From Candidatus Brocadia sp. WS118 (lineage in GTDB: Bacteria > Planctomycetota > Brocadiia > Brocadiales > Brocadiaceae): 64,000 bases of DNA. The first letter of the stretch is position 1, and every line of letters starts with the position of its first letter. The translations under genes were made by a program, and so were the position numbers. Under the pieces are notes generated by a model. That model had not been told where the DNA came from. It made no database searches and worked only from the letters and a program-made list of their open reading frames with translations. Positions 369 to 53,750 of this stretch are shown in pieces. The stretch covers positions 1 through 64,000 of the forward strand of contig PHFX01000150.1 in assembly GCA_007618135.1 (NCBI GenBank), in the 5' to 3' direction.

Positions 369-3300
369 TTAATCCTTCAAAAACTGAGACAGTTGCTGAA
401 TCAATGAAATTGATCCCATACCCCCTAAAGGGGTTAAAATAGCCATTATAATCGGATTGTTGAAAGAAATAAGGGGAGAATAAGCCCCGCTTTTCAGTTT
501 CTGAATTTCATTCATAACATATTCTTTCGACCTTAGCTGCTGTTCTATAAGTTTTGATTTTTTGTCATCAAACGCATCGACATCTTCTGGCAAATGAGTA
601 TTTATCAATATCAGCTGTTCCTCACGTAACCGCGTTATCATTTGCAGACGGGCCATTTTTGCTTCATAAAAGAGGATAATCGTAAAAACCAGGGCAATCA
701 GTGTCGTCAATCCGATAACAATCGCTAAAGGAACAGTCCACGTCCAATTGTCAAAATATTTATGGCGAGAAACCAGGAGCAAAAATAAAATCAGAAATGG
801 ATATTTTATCATTTCCCCAACAACCTTAGTTTTTTCTCCAATAATTTTCATGGTAAACCAGTAGCCCGATGTATCATCAGTCATTTGTTTAGCATATTTA
901 TTCAGGCAATCGGCGTATTTATCTTGACACTCTTTACCTTCTTTCTCACATGCATCACCTTCTAAAGAGCACCGGGCGCTTAATAGCGTTGGCACATTTA
1001 CCGCTTTTTTTAGACCTGTTTCGGTAAATTCCTTGATAAACTTTATGCAAAGCCTTGTAGCATCTATTACAAACGCGATGAGGATTAGCATCAATAGAAG
1101 GCTTGAAATGAGAATGCATTTATCAACGTACAAACTGATTTCACCACGAAAAGGGATAAGTGGTTTACCGCATATCAGAATAAAGAAATAACCTGCGACT
1201 AAATAACCTACTGCTGCAATCCCGATAAAGCACCAGTTGTTCCTTGATTTCCTACTGGATTGATATTCCTTCCAGATATTAGCTATAACAAGAATCGAAT
1301 GGGATTTTACCTCTGACGGATTAGTATGAGTTTTTGATTCTGGGCAAAACTGATTTATTTTTTTATTGTTAAGCATAATGCCCTGAACAGAAAAAAGCAG
1401 CAAATACAGGGCTAGTAATCCGCTAAAAAGACGAAGCAGTTCCGTTGGCCACATACTAATACCGTCAAAAAATGTTATCGGCTCGCCATCTCCATTCCAC
1501 GATGATATGACTGCACAAACCGTTAGGGCTGCAAAAGATAATACACAGGCAATTAAAAAACCCACCCAATACTTCTTCCATGTGTGATACATTCCAGCCT
1601 TTTTAGTTTCTTGTCTATTGTAATAAAACAACCCACCAAAAACGCTTATTGGAAGGAAAAGCATGAAAACCAGATAAAACCACAAATCCTTCCTTGGAAT
1701 GTATTTCCAACAGTCATAGCGATCAGGATGTAACGATTTAGCTCCTGACAAGTCTGATTTGTCTGCAGAAACAGGAGTCAAGTCGTATGCCCCCCGATGT
1801 CCTATTTCGAAAATCCGGGGCTGATTCACATTGCCATTGAAATCGATTTCATCTTTAGGTATTATTCCCAATGCCTGGAGTGCAGCGGCAAACAAAGAGG
1901 TTTGATAGGTAGAACGGAATGGAGGGATTGCCACTTGACGGTCAGGATGCAACCGAAGTCCATAACTGGATGCCACAATAAGGTTTCGAGTCCAGGGAAG
2001 TTCTGTATGATGAAATAGTCGGGCATCCAAATCTGTAGTGAAAAAGATGGCGCTGGGAAACTGGCCACGCATCGCCCTTAATATAAGCAACTTGTCATAT
2101 ATATCGTTGCCAAGAACACCAATTGCACCAACTTTGTGCTTGGAATACTCTTGTTTTATCCTCTCGGTCAAACGGCGTATGTAATCAAACTGGTCCTGCC
2201 CCGAAGGTTGTTCAAATAATGGAGTAAAGTAGCCGGTGTCGGCATTATTCTTGTTATTTTGTGCAGTACCCGCAGGCTGCTTTATAGGTAAACGGGAACT
2301 ATCGTCTGCATTGGATATCATACCATCAATGCCCCGCATGTAACTAAATGTGTGTATCTTTTTTGTGAGCCAGGTAAGATTGACATCTGAGTTGGTTACT
2401 TGCCTGTTTTTTTCGCTATCTTCCTGATCTTTTAGTAAAGACATAGTAAAAGATATAGGTAAAGCCCGTCCGTAAAAAGTATCCCAATCGCTGATAAGGA
2501 TGATATCACCGGAACTCTCGCTTCTCATATTTATGCCACGACGTCTCAGCTCCTGTACCAATTCATCAGTCAATTGATGGTCAGTGTGAATTGATCTTTG
2601 TAAATAAACTCCCTTATGTCTCAAAATGAATTTAAAAATATCCTCTTCTTTAAAAATACCTTCAGATTGTACTTTCTTATACATTTTGACAAGCATAGGC
2701 CTCGTTATCTGCTTTTTTGACACCATCAAAAGCGGATCAGCCGTTGCCCAGGATGAGTATATCTCAAATTTCTTTTCACAGTCAGGCGCTGGTCCGATGA
2801 GTTCATTTTTTAATTTCCTTTTTGCTATTTCGAATTCATTTTGTGCCCGGGCTATTTGTTCCTCCTGAGGTATATCTTTTTTAATTCCACCTAAATCTTC
2901 TTGCACTCCAATATAGCTATACATCCTTTTAAGTAATTCTTTTATAGAACAATTACTTGGAAGAGCTTCTGAAATAATTTCTTGAAGGGTGGTAGAATTG
3001 GTTGGACCAAGCACCTTCATGGTTAGCGCCGGCTTACCTTTAAATCGTTCCTGAAAATATTCAAACAAAAGCCGTAAACCTTCAAGCCGTTTACCTGGAA
3101 AATATTCCTCTCCCAGCCAGAGAACAAGTATGGCGCCATATTTTACATTCATCTCCTGTGATGGAAACGGATCCAACAGAAACCATTCATAAGGTATGGC
3201 CCGTGTCTGGTTGTTGATCTCGCTCTCACTATTGAACTCGTTCTTATTATCGAACTGATACCCAAAATATCCGATATGTTCAGCATCTTTTGGCTTGTAA

Positions 3301-3698
3301 CCAGCGATATGAAGTGCGGAAAGTACGGCGTAACGGCTTCGTAACCGGTCTTCAAAGTTTTCTGGATAACGTTCTGCTGTTATCATGACAGGTAAGATTA
3401 ATATATCCTCAATATCTTTGACAAATTCTGATGGTTGGAACTCCTTAAAGATTACGGATTTCTTTTTGGTAGCTTCATAGTTTTTAATATGCTTTTCAAC
3501 CGCTTGAAAGGGATCCTGCCACATGCGCGCCAACACATCCTCTTCATCTGATGGCCATTCAAATTCTTTTTCATGAAGGGAAGGACGCATGGTATCTAAA
3601 GGGGCATAGAACCTGAAAATTCCGCCCGCAACAATAGCAGCAATTAACAAGAGGGCAGGAATTGGATACGAAAATTTATTTTCTTGTTGATCAGCCAT
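369..3698 (-). CDS. large multi-pass membrane protein of unknown function, 1109 aa
   Basis: I do not recognise a named family. One N-terminal membrane segment lies at about residues 11-32. A large soluble, probably extracytoplasmic region of about 630 residues follows. A C-terminal membrane block has segments near 670-692, 711-735, 753-775, 820-845, 860-884, 963-980 and 985-1014. A cysteine-rich patch (four Cys) lies at about 908-935, between two membrane segments. No transporter or enzyme motif is evident. The soluble part contains stretches such as GVLGNDIYDKLLILRAM that resemble an alpha/beta periplasmic fold, which is speculation. The gene stands alone. Its leader carries a hairpin with a U-tract and, before it, a putative c-di-GMP-I aptamer, so expression is probably set by c-di-GMP. 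No clear Shine-Dalgarno sequence precedes the ATG. The frame is certain from its length; the function is unknown. Confidence 0.9.
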   Translation of the reverse strand: MADQQENKFSYPIPALLLIAAIVAGGIFRFYAPLDTMRPSLHEKEFEWPSDEEDVLARMWQDPFQAVEKHIKNYEATKKKSVIFKEFQPSEFVKDIEDILILPVMITAERYPENFEDRLRSRYAVLSALHIAGYKPKDAEHIGYFGYQFDNKNEFNSESEINNQTRAIPYEWFLLDPFPSQEMNVKYGAILVLWLGEEYFPGKRLEGLRLLFEYFQERFKGKPALTMKVLGPTNSTTLQEIISEALPSNCSIKELLKRMYSYIGVQEDLGGIKKDIPQEEQIARAQNEFEIAKRKLKNELIGPAPDCEKKFEIYSSWATADPLLMVSKKQITRPMLVKMYKKVQSEGIFKEEDIFKFILRHKGVYLQRSIHTDHQLTDELVQELRRRGINMRSESSGDIILISDWDTFYGRALPISFTMSLLKDQEDSEKNRQVTNSDVNLTWLTKKIHTFSYMRGIDGMISNADDSSRLPIKQPAGTAQNNKNNADTGYFTPLFEQPSGQDQFDYIRRLTERIKQEYSKHKVGAIGVLGNDIYDKLLILRAMRGQFPSAIFFTTDLDARLFHHTELPWTRNLIVASSYGLRLHPDRQVAIPPFRSTYQTSLFAAALQALGIIPKDEIDFNGNVNQPRIFEIGHRGAYDLTPVSADKSDLSGAKSLHPDRYDCWKYIPRKDLWFYLVFMLFLPISVFGGLFYYNRQETKKAGMYHTWKKYWVGFLIACVLSFAALTVCAVISSWNGDGEPITFFDGISMWPTELLRLFSGLLALYLLLFSVQGIMLNNKKINQFCPESKTHTNPSEVKSHSILVIANIWKEYQSSRKSRNNWCFIGIAAVGYLVAGYFFILICGKPLIPFRGEISLYVDKCILISSLLLMLILIAFVIDATRLCIKFIKEFTETGLKKAVNVPTLLSARCSLEGDACEKEGKECQDKYADCLNKYAKQMTDDTSGYWFTMKIIGEKTKVVGEMIKYPFLILFLLLVSRHKYFDNWTWTVPLAIVIGLTTLIALVFTIILFYEAKMARLQMITRLREEQLILINTHLPEDVDAFDDKKSKLIEQQLRSKEYVMNEIQKLKSGAYSPLISFNNPIIMAILTPLGGMGSISLIQQLSQFLKD

Positions 3699-3740: not shown

Positions 3741-3787
3741 AGCCTTACTGCAAAGATTTTTTCCAAAACATCTTTGGCAGTAAGGCT
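3741..3787 (-). terminator. intrinsic terminator hairpin in the leader of the 1109-aa gene
   Basis: On the minus strand AGCCTTACTGCCAAAGAT pairs across a short loop with ATCTTTGCAGTAAGGCT (one bulged base), followed directly by TTTTTTATTTATTTTT. This is the form of a Rho-independent terminator. It sits about 40 nt before the start codon of the membrane protein, hence inside its leader, which fits a riboswitch expression platform. It could also simply end transcripts from purM. Confidence 0.8.
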
Positions 3788-3799
3788 GTCTTTCTTATA

Positions 3800-3893
3800 T
3801 AAGGGCGTATTGCAATAAACCCTTACAAAGGACCCTATTACTTTGCGCCCCCTGATTACTCAGGGTTTACCTTTATCAAATGTCTTCTGATAT
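3800..3893 (-). promoter_or_regulatory. putative cyclic di-GMP-I (GEMM) riboswitch aptamer
   Basis: Read on the minus strand the region carries GGTAAACC, a short stem CTGA-GTAA-TCAG closed by a GNRA-type tetraloop, then GGGGCGCAAAG followed by a second arm beginning TAGGGTCC. The GEMM-I consensus has AAACC, a GNRA-capped stem, then CGCAAAGC and a second hairpin. The order and spacing match. The closing P1 stem and the tetraloop receptor are less clear to me. The terminator at 3741-3787 and the gene start at 3698 follow in the same direction. A covariance-model search (Rfam RF01051) would decide. Confidence 0.55.
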
Positions 3894-4036
3894 ACACCGT
3901 GAGCGAACGAGAAGCCATACCACAGTAAAACCAAATATTTTTGAATAACCATTACCTTAGTTATTTATTATAAACCAGTTATAGATAAAATAGCACAGAA
4001 ACAGAGGGCAACAGGTTCACGGAAAAATCCACAAAT

Positions 4037-4090
4037 AAGTGTGTCATGGCACATAAGTGCGACGTCACACTTATGTGCCATGACACACTT
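4037..4090. repeat. 54-bp near-perfect palindrome
   Basis: Two 23-nt arms (4037-4059 and 4068-4090) are exact reverse complements. The centre CGACGTCA is itself palindromic except for one base pair. It lies about 190 bp downstream of purM. As RNA it would be a very stable hairpin and could serve as a terminator or transcript-end structure. It may equally be a repeat-family member or protein-binding palindrome. Confidence 0.85.
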
Positions 4091-4281
4091 TTATATTATG
4101 ACAAACACGGGCAAAATAACTAACTCTTGTGATTTCCGCAAGAATAATCTCAAGGCGATAGAGGGGTATATTCCTGATGATCATTTTCAGCAGTACAAGT
4201 CAGGAGAATATCAAAAAAATAGAATCGATATCATTACACCAATTTTATCTACGATTTCCTTTGTCTTTTGTGCTTATTCCT

Positions 4282-5352
4282 TCAAACGATCTGAACCATC
4301 CTGTCTCCTCTTGTAACCTCACCAATAACTATTCCCGGTTCTTTTCCGTGTTTCAGGTCATTTAAGACGGTTTCCACATCAGATTTGGATACAACCAGCA
4401 CCATGCCAATACCCATATTAAACACATGGAACATTTCCTGGTCAGCAATTTCACCAACGTCTTGAATTATCTTAAAAATCTTCGGAACATCCCATCTTTT
4501 TCTTTCCAAGGCAACAGCATAACCTTCAGGCAAGATACGCGGTACATTATCCAGGAATCCACCGCCGGTAATGTGTGCCATTCCTTTTATGACATTTTTT
4601 GTTGTGTGTTTATTCAAGATCTTCAGGATCGATTTCACATAGATCTTCGTTGGTCGTATCAGTTCTTCTCCGAGGGTAGTATTCAGCCCGTATTTCTTAA
4701 GGCTTTGATTTGTTTTCATCTTTGCCCTGTCAAAGAAGACCTTTCGTACCAGGGAAAATCCATTGCTATGGATTCCGCTCGATTGTAAACCAATCACCCG
4801 ATCACCGGCTTTTATCGTTTTGCCCGTGATAATTTTGTCCTTTTCAACCACGCCAACTACAAAACCCGCGATGTCATATTCACCTTCGTGGTAAAACCCA
4901 GGCATCTCAGGCGTCTCACCGCCAATGAGCGCGCAATCTGCCTGATGACATCCCTCCACAATACCATCCAACACTTCATGAAGTACCCTTGGTACAATTT
5001 TACTGCTTGCCAAATAGTCCAGAAGAAACAAAGGTTCGGCCCCCAATACAACAATGTCATTAACGCACATGGCTACAAGATCGATTCCGATGGTATCGTG
5101 CTTATCCATCATAAAGGCGATTTTTAATTTAGTACCCACCCCATCGGTGGAAGAAACGAGTACCGGTTGGCGATATTTCTTAAAACGGGAGTTTAGTGCA
5201 AAGAGACCGCCGAATCCATCAGGATTTTCAATCACCCTTGGGCCAAACGTTGTTTGCATTTTTGAATAAATATCTGTCGTAAATTGACCCTTTGTGTCGA
5301 CATCAACGCCTGCGTCCCGGTACGACAGTCCCTTTTTTGTTTTTTTTGTCAT
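4282..5352 (-). CDS. purM: phosphoribosylformylglycinamidine cyclo-ligase (AIR synthetase)
   Basis: Fifth step of de novo purine synthesis: ATP-dependent closure of FGAM to aminoimidazole ribonucleotide in the cytoplasm. The 356 residues match the usual PurM length. The N-terminal signature SYRDAGVDVDTKG is present, as are VSSTDGVGTKLKIAF near residue 65, DLVAMCVNDIVVLGAEPL near 91 and GGETPEMPG near 143, the nucleotide-binding features of the PurM/ThiL/HypE fold. HITGGGFLDNVPRILP in the C-terminal half is also family-typical. It is a single gene with no purine neighbours. A modest GGA ribosome site lies before the ATG. Confidence 0.97.
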   Translation of the reverse strand: MTKKTKKGLSYRDAGVDVDTKGQFTTDIYSKMQTTFGPRVIENPDGFGGLFALNSRFKKYRQPVLVSSTDGVGTKLKIAFMMDKHDTIGIDLVAMCVNDIVVLGAEPLFLLDYLASSKIVPRVLHEVLDGIVEGCHQADCALIGGETPEMPGFYHEGEYDIAGFVVGVVEKDKIITGKTIKAGDRVIGLQSSGIHSNGFSLVRKVFFDRAKMKTNQSLKKYGLNTTLGEELIRPTKIYVKSILKILNKHTTKNVIKGMAHITGGGFLDNVPRILPEGYAVALERKRWDVPKIFKIIQDVGEIADQEMFHVFNMGIGMVLVVSKSDVETVLNDLKHGKEPGIVIGEVTRGDRMVQIV

Positions 5353-16029: not shown

Positions 16030-17571
16030 ATGAAAAAAGAAGCTCTAAAGGTTGTTGTTGAATCAGAATCGCTGCCTACCCTACCAACCGTTGCATGCAA
16101 ACTCATCTCAATCTCTTCTCAGGAAGAAATAGGAATGAAGGAAATTGCAACCCTTGTCTCGAAAGATGCATCCCTGTCTGCAAAGGTATTGAAAATAGCC
16201 AATTCAGCCCTTTATAATTTCCCTGTAAAAATAAGCAATGTACATCAAGCTGCTTCAAGAATAGGATTAAATGCGATCCGGAGCCTAGTACTTTCATTTT
16301 CATTTTTGTCAATTAAGTCAAAAAACAACGAGAATGTTTTCGATTATGAGAAGTTTTGGGAAAAATCCCTTTCAAACGCAGTTGCAGCAAGGCTTGTCAT
16401 GAATGAGGTTAGCAAATCTAACGGGGAAGAGATTTTCATTGCCGGGCTCTTGCAGGACATAGGAGAACTAATTATGGCCGGATGCTTCCCACAGCAGTAT
16501 GCACAACTATTGCTGGAAACGTCCGGTGGCGAAAAAGACACTATTGAAATGGAAGAACAAATTCTTGGGGCAGACCATACGTCCATTGGATACGAAGTTG
16601 CTAAAAAGTGGGGATTTCCTCAGGAGTTACTAATTCCTATTCTCTATCATCATTGTCCGCAAAACTATAAGGATGCCGGCAGCAAGCTCAAGCTCTCTGT
16701 CAACGTCGTTTATTTATCAGGAATCGTTACGAATATTCTTTACTCAAATAAACCTCAGAAATATCATCAAAAATTCCTCGATGAATCTCGGTCGATGTTC
16801 GGCTTTGATGACAAAATCTATAGCAGGATACTGGATCATGTTGTTGAAGAAATAAACCAGACTGCAGGGCTCTTTGACCTTCATGTCAAAAATCACAAGC
16901 CAATTGAGGATATCCTGCAAGAGGCCAATGCGTCTCTCAGCAGTATAAACTTAACATACGATCAAATGAACCGGGAACTTAAAGACGCCAAGGTCCAATT
17001 GCAAAAGATTACCAAAGAACTTGAAGAAAAAAATAAGCATCTCGAAAGACTTGCACAACTGGATAGCTTAACGGAAGTATATAATCATGGTTTTTTTCAA
17101 AAAATGCTTCAAAATCAAGCTAGCTTAGCAACCCGTAAAATATCACCTCTTAGTTTAATTATGATAGATGTTGATCATTTCAAAAATTTCAACGATAATT
17201 ACGGGCATCAGGTTGGTGATGCGATTTTAAAGGAATTATGCACGTTAATGAAAAAATCGCTCAGAGAATATGATATGATTTTCCGGTACGGCGGTGAAGA
17301 ATTTGCTATTATGCTTGTTGATACGGATGACCGCGATGCCCGAATTGTTGCTGAACGATTACGAGAATCTATTGCCATGCATACCTTTATCGTTCAGAGC
17401 AAAAACCATAACGTAACCGCAAGTCTTGGCGTGGCAGAAATAATGCCAGCGCTCGATGATTTTACCAATAAAGATCTTATTGTCTTTGCGGATGCAGCCC
17501 TTTTGGAATCCAAGAAGAAAGGCCGTAACAGAGTTACGGTGTACGAACAGAAAAAATGTTTTCTAACTTAG
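16030..17571 (+). CDS. HDOD-domain diguanylate cyclase
   Basis: A signalling protein that joins an N-terminal HDOD domain (residues 10-215; SLPTLPTVACKLISISSQEE and IFIAGLLQDIGELIMAGCFP) to a coiled coil at about 300-345 and a C-terminal GGDEF domain. The active loop reads RYGGEEF, a functional GGEEF variant. An RxxD inhibition site (REYD) sits five residues before it, so c-di-GMP product inhibition is likely. HDOD domains usually act as protein-interaction modules. With the HD-GYP regulator at 22.0 kb and the putative c-di-GMP riboswitch at 3.8 kb, the window holds makers, breakers and readers of this messenger. Confidence 0.93.
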   Translation: MKKEALKVVVESESLPTLPTVACKLISISSQEEIGMKEIATLVSKDASLSAKVLKIANSALYNFPVKISNVHQAASRIGLNAIRSLVLSFSFLSIKSKNNENVFDYEKFWEKSLSNAVAARLVMNEVSKSNGEEIFIAGLLQDIGELIMAGCFPQQYAQLLLETSGGEKDTIEMEEQILGADHTSIGYEVAKKWGFPQELLIPILYHHCPQNYKDAGSKLKLSVNVVYLSGIVTNILYSNKPQKYHQKFLDESRSMFGFDDKIYSRILDHVVEEINQTAGLFDLHVKNHKPIEDILQEANASLSSINLTYDQMNRELKDAKVQLQKITKELEEKNKHLERLAQLDSLTEVYNHGFFQKMLQNQASLATRKISPLSLIMIDVDHFKNFNDNYGHQVGDAILKELCTLMKKSLREYDMIFRYGGEEFAIMLVDTDDRDARIVAERLRESIAMHTFIVQSKNHNVTASLGVAEIMPALDDFTNKDLIVFADAALLESKKKGRNRVTVYEQKKCFLT

Positions 17572-53669: not shown

Positions 53670-53750
53670 GATAGGGGTAGGGAAGGCTTCACCTCTCCTC
53701 CCTCCGAACCATACAGGCAGTTCTCCCGCATACAGCTCTCCGGTCGGTGA
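53670..53750 (-). mobile_element. group II intron fragment
   Basis: On the minus strand AGCTGTATGCGGGAGAACTG and CCTGTATGGTTCGGAGGGAG form the hairpin and conserved GGTTCGGAGGG tract seen in bacterial group II introns close to the maturase gene, and CCTTCCCTACCCCTATC resembles intron 3' terminal sequence. No reverse transcriptase is present, so only about 80 bp remain between cheB and phoU. Confidence 0.55.

Follow-up and report, generated by a model that had tools for sequence, protein, structure and literature searches.

The window analysed here, a stretch of 64,000 nt from contig PHFX01000150.1 of Candidatus Brocadia sp. WS118, carries on its minus strand an ORF for a 1109-aa protein, the ATG of which (3698) lies approximately 75 nt downstream of a c-di-GMP-I riboswitch (Table 1). 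An intrinsic terminator hairpin of 17 pairs with 1 bulged base (-23.0 kcal/mol) is formed between the 3' strand of the aptamer, which serves as its 5' arm, and a 3' arm at 3757-3741. The original prediction had an aptamer, then a terminator hairpin with U-tract, and then the gene; all of these are real, but the hairpin overlaps the aptamer instead of standing apart behind it, as the two share AGCCUUACUGCC.

Table 1. Features of the riboswitch and its downstream gene, in window positions
Feature	Position	Strand	Basis
c-di-GMP-I (GEMM-I) riboswitch aptamer	3773..3881	minus	RF01051, 54.8 bits vs gathering score 35
G20 equivalent (ligand contact)	3871	minus	G in 77/77 related aptamers
Aptamer stem P2, CCCUGA-GUAA-UCAGGG, GNRA tetraloop	3850..3865	minus	Sequence and pairing in relatives
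A47 equivalent (stacks between ligand bases)	3844	minus	A in 77/77 related aptamers
P3 apical part, contains diverged palindromic repeat copy (GTAGGGGCGTATTGCAATACGCCCCTAC)	3791..3830	minus	Sequence, aptamer comparison
C92 equivalent (pairs with ligand)	3777	minus	C in 77/77 related aptamers
Intrinsic terminator	3741..3787	minus	5' arm 3787-3770 = aptamer P3/P1 3' strand; U-tract from 3740
ORF of 1109-aa protein	369..3698	minus	ORF; AlphaFold2, hydropathy, Foldseek

The landmarks from which a c-di-GMP-I riboswitch had been proposed, namely AAACC, a GTAA-capped stem (P2, at 3850-3865) and CGCAAAG, are all present and in the GEMM order. The covariance search against RF01051 that had been suggested as a check agrees with this assignment, the score being well over the cut-off, with an E-value of 5.9e-8 when the whole 64 kb was scanned against all families with cmscan and of 2.3e-10 for a short stretch. 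Furthermore, the three contact bases are the canonical G20, A47 and C92, in the numbering of Vc2. A set of 77 aptamers (70 distinct) from the WS118 genome, the orthologous leaders and other Brocadiaceae was parsed, and these three bases proved invariant in all of them. Pairing was intact in 97.7% of stem cells, whereas shuffles averaged 83.9% and never exceeded 86.0%, and for P2 the figures were 98.3% and 71.9% over the 70 distinct relatives; the significance derived from shuffling is overstated because the sequences are related, yet P2 nonetheless offers many kinds of pair, with compensatory changes and several types per position. P2 with its GNRA tetraloop and P3, by which the c-di-GMP-I class is recognised, are therefore both present with support from covariation, and the element is, judged by its sequence, an additional member of this known class.

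Like other RF01051 members, the aptamer combines a good score, the P2 tetraloop, P3 and the three contact bases with a position upstream of envelope or exported-protein genes. It differs from them in carrying U22 and G43, a combination found less often next to the binding pocket than C22 and A43, and in a P3 apex that is enlarged by a palindromic repeat. Within the parsed set U22 is accompanied by G43 in 7/7 aptamers, and C22 in only 13/70 (Fisher p 9e-5 on distinct sequences, with relatedness ignored). Among the switches compared at this point (window, 3791-3830; L012, L019, L026, L029; L033), several hold copies of the palindrome GTAGGGGCGTATTGCAATACGCCCCTAC at the P3 apex, whereas in the orthologous leaders of genomes G004, G006 and G010 that position is taken by another repeat. 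It looks as if repeats can land in the P3 loop and are tolerated there.

So which cyclic dinucleotide does this aptamer sense? On the window, the family RF03167 (c-di-GMP-I-GGC) reaches 57.8, slightly more than RF01051, and its cut-off is passed by the orthologous leaders of G004 and G005, so that a variant with altered ligand, or else an aptamer for 3',3'-cGAMP, has to be considered. However, the window score is below the family's own gathering score of 59, and position 47, a G in the RF03167 consensus, is A in the window as well as in every parsed relative. Because the leaders of G004 and G005 carry A47 as well and still pass, we regard the match as a peripheral similarity. Switches for cGAMP (GEMM-Ib), for their part, have A at position 20, whereas G is found at 3871 in the window and at the equivalent position of all 77 aptamers. 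The enzymes point in the same direction. The WS118 genome encodes 20 GGDEF and 6 EAL domains for synthesis and breakdown of c-di-GMP, and the specificity site of GGDEF is the canonical Asp in 16/16 readable domains. None of these 16 is of the Hypr type, the signature of cGAMP synthases, which is a Ser at this residue (PMC6456294). On the basis of contact bases and GGDEF residues, both the GGC-variant and the cGAMP reading were rejected, and a ligand other than c-di-GMP is very unlikely. Given the mismatch between A47 and RF03167, together with the Asp residues, c-di-GMP itself is the likely ligand. A candidate diguanylate cyclase is encoded in the same window, with a GGDEF domain (GGEEF, 17053-17532, plus strand) at the end of a 513-aa ORF (16030-17571).

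Four other Brocadia genomes, G003 (where the gene is frameshifted), G004, G005 and G007, have the same leader in front of the orthologous gene, and in G006 and G010 it stands before the remains of the gene. The comparison of leaders that the original prediction had called for thus finds the leader conserved before the gene in the former four and before gene remnants in the latter two. The outcome named as a refutation, an insignificant covariance score with an aptamer core not kept in relatives, is therefore not what was seen. Since the genes flanking the orthologue in G004, G005 and G007 differ from those of the window, leader and gene have been kept together across contexts. Relatives of the protein, at 78% identity in B. 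pituitae and 65% in B. sapporoensis, assign the window to Candidatus Brocadia. A distant homologue in G019 proved to have no such switch nearby, and none was found beside the nine non-Brocadia homologues checked (from Nitrospira, Nitrosospira, Scalindua, Anammoxibacter and others). Among the homologues examined, predicted control by the switch is a trait of Brocadia and not of the protein family.

One could also imagine that the leader is a decayed copy of a dispersed repeat cassette, which has lost control over the 1109-aa gene and was retained by chance. Many copies of the cassette occur in the genome, P3 carries repeat inserts, and the switch persists before the pseudogene remnants of G006 and G010. 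Against this stands the fact that the window, like G003, G004, G005 and G007, retains all of the pairing, core and terminator features, whereas it is in G006 and G010, where the gene is broken, that a mismatch (GCAGUACGGC) interrupts the terminator arm. Together with the conservation of the leader-gene pair in differing genomic contexts, this makes chance retention very unlikely.

Computed folding gives the full leader -50.0 kcal/mol as terminator and -35.6 kcal/mol when P2 and P3 are forced, which makes the terminator the default in the absence of ligand. An advantage of approximately 14 kcal/mol implies that switching must be kinetic, a property to which folding energies are blind. The strand that the aptamer requires is also required by the terminator, which makes the two mutually exclusive, and it is this shared 3' strand that couples the expression platform to the aptamer. 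From this anatomy we infer that binding must prevent termination, and thus that the element is an ON switch. During transcription of the leader, c-di-GMP would bind the aptamer and lock AGCCUUACUGCC into P3, no terminator would form, and RNA polymerase would continue into the 1109-aa gene. Without c-di-GMP, AGCCUUACUGCC would pair with GCAGUAAGGCU instead, and transcription would halt at the U-tract. An OFF switch comparable to the Cd1 riboswitch, in which binding causes termination, is very unlikely at this locus: both polarities do occur in the c-di-GMP-I class (PMC9262584), but such a switch needs an antiterminator that frees the terminator upon binding, whereas here the terminator consumes the aptamer 3' strand and the two cannot coexist, and it is on account of this common strand that we rejected it. 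A parallel for the ON switch is the experimentally studied pilM riboswitch of Geobacter metallireducens, an ON switch with a T+A+H terminator that senses cGAMP (PMC9262584). The leader described here has the same architecture, with a T+A+H terminator that takes the aptamer 3' strand and folds that exclude each other, but unlike pilM its aptamer carries the signature for c-di-GMP. Altogether, the element very probably acts as a transcriptional ON switch of the c-di-GMP-I class, placed before the gene for a probable sensor or ligand-gated membrane protein.

The switch is far from alone. The WS118 genome contains 37 near-identical RF01051 matches, 36 of which exceed the cut-off, and 33/37 share the same competing terminator design. 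Downstream of them are genes for a pseudopilin, three subtilases, Lcl_C, NHL, RCC1, beta-helix and DUF11 proteins and OmpH, as well as a caspase-PEGA protein, polysaccharide synthesis, a sigma-54 regulator and an amidase; for the most part these are exported, surface or envelope functions. At high c-di-GMP the 1109-aa protein would accordingly be made alongside many exported and surface proteins that are under copies of the same switch, and the link to a surface or aggregate lifestyle that had been suggested for it is consistent with these other controlled genes. Geobacter sulfurreducens has a comparable GEMM-I regulon of 17 switches (PMC6456294), where again a single genome holds many copies, some in tandem, ahead of genes for exported, pilus and envelope proteins. 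In contrast, WS118 has 37 and the number reaches 56 in the genome of one Brocadia relative, the terminator design in WS118 is nearly uniform (33/37), and no Hypr GGDEF is seen among the 16 readable domains. Counts per genome range from 20 to 56 in Brocadia, from 1 to 28 in other Brocadiaceae and from 0 to 5 in other sampled planctomycetes, where the Brocadia counts that come from the wider planctomycete survey are to be read as "at least". A second GEMM-I subtype (GCCAUGGGUC...CCAGGUUGCC) without terminator, sometimes in tandem, is also present in Brocadiaceae (L003, L011, L150, L152-L157, L159, L162 and others), and possibly acts through translational control.

Two things stand out here, the expansion at genus level with one uniform expression platform and the attachment to an unnamed receptor-like family; in the literature searched, which was short of most subscription journals, we found no paper on either. 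Pure cultures are lacking for the anammox bacteria of Brocadia, which grow in granules (PMC11224092); these organisms appear to operate a c-di-GMP regulon mostly at the level of RNA. Moreover, one branch of a widespread but unnamed receptor-like family is hereby placed under predicted c-di-GMP control, which provides a testable handle on it.

The 1109-aa protein itself had been described as having no known function. This holds as far as Pfam is concerned, where it has no family, and it has no sequence match in the PDB; AlphaFold2 and Foldseek nevertheless make it recognisable as a sensor-type membrane protein. The model (mean pLDDT 79, pTM 0.79) predicts one N-terminal membrane helix, a periplasmic-binding-protein-I-like domain at residues ~52-650 and a membrane domain of 7-8 helices at ~669-1108. 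Relatives occur at 180 loci or more in many phyla and strongly conserve the motifs ARLWQDPF, SEWDTxYGR, SDVYDKLLILQALR and FFTTDLDAR. For the alpha/beta domain, Foldseek returns leucine-type binding proteins and ectodomains of metabotropic glutamate receptors (E 2e-4 to 3e-4), with the leucine-binding protein 4q6b at E 2.9e-4 and TM 0.55 on target and 4mlc at 0.56 (probability 1.00), both above the value of 0.5 on target used for the type I periplasmic-binding protein fold; the Venus-flytrap assignment is that of a predicted model with inserts, at an rmsd near 11 A. The likeness to type I periplasmic-binding proteins and the Venus-flytraps of class C receptors (4q6b, mGluR5 6n50) is thus one of predicted fold, whereas a sequence-level match to these is lacking, the inserts are large and the domain is joined to a membrane domain. 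As modelled, the combination of a membrane helix, a Venus-flytrap and a 7-8-helix domain suggests a sensor or channel, and the protein is most likely a ligand sensor in the periplasm or a membrane protein gated by a ligand.

When the membrane domain was folded alone, its top eight PDB matches were insect gustatory and odorant receptors (Gr/Or), which are seven-transmembrane ion channels. The E-value was 0.013 at best and the TM at most 0.44, short of 0.5 to any member of 7TMIC, and for that reason we take the resemblance as a lead that is too weak to claim. The 7TMIC superfamily is marked by seven membrane helices with a split last one; hydropathy of the domain gives seven strong hydrophobic peaks and a broken C-terminal helix, and the count is eight peaks, not seven, with the C-terminal one included. 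Members of the superfamily have also been described from prokaryotes (Himmel et al. 2023, as cited in PMC11526382). It is unlikely that the protein is a bacterial receptor that couples a Venus-flytrap to a channel domain distantly kin to insect Gr/Or and that was drawn, in Brocadia, into an unusually large c-di-GMP regulon by the spread of a terminator-coupled cassette.

Homologues often adjoin caspase, alpha/beta-hydrolase, patatin, metallophosphatase and protease genes (L064, 2047-5973; L061, 750-3351; L071, 5913-9214). The recurring hydrolases are caspase with DUF7379, DUF900, patatin, metallophosphatase, trypsin and subtilase, in neighbourhoods that are mosaic, and sensor-effector modules are possible. 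We make no claim of a conflict system because no partner is fixed, and assigning a function from gene neighbours was likewise rejected for want of a constant one.

Two other features of the window deserve mention. Between the riboswitch and a purM-like gene (4282-5352, minus) lies a nearly perfect 52-nt palindrome (4038-4089, AGTGTGTCATGGCACATAAGTG...), the arm of which has two diverged copies elsewhere in the genome. It may serve as a terminator in both directions or represent a small mobile repeat. Matches to microRNA families at 4016-4106 were dismissed as chance matches to this palindrome, being far under their cut-offs. Finally, a group II intron match (RF00029, 45 bits) is located at 53671-53740 on the minus strand.
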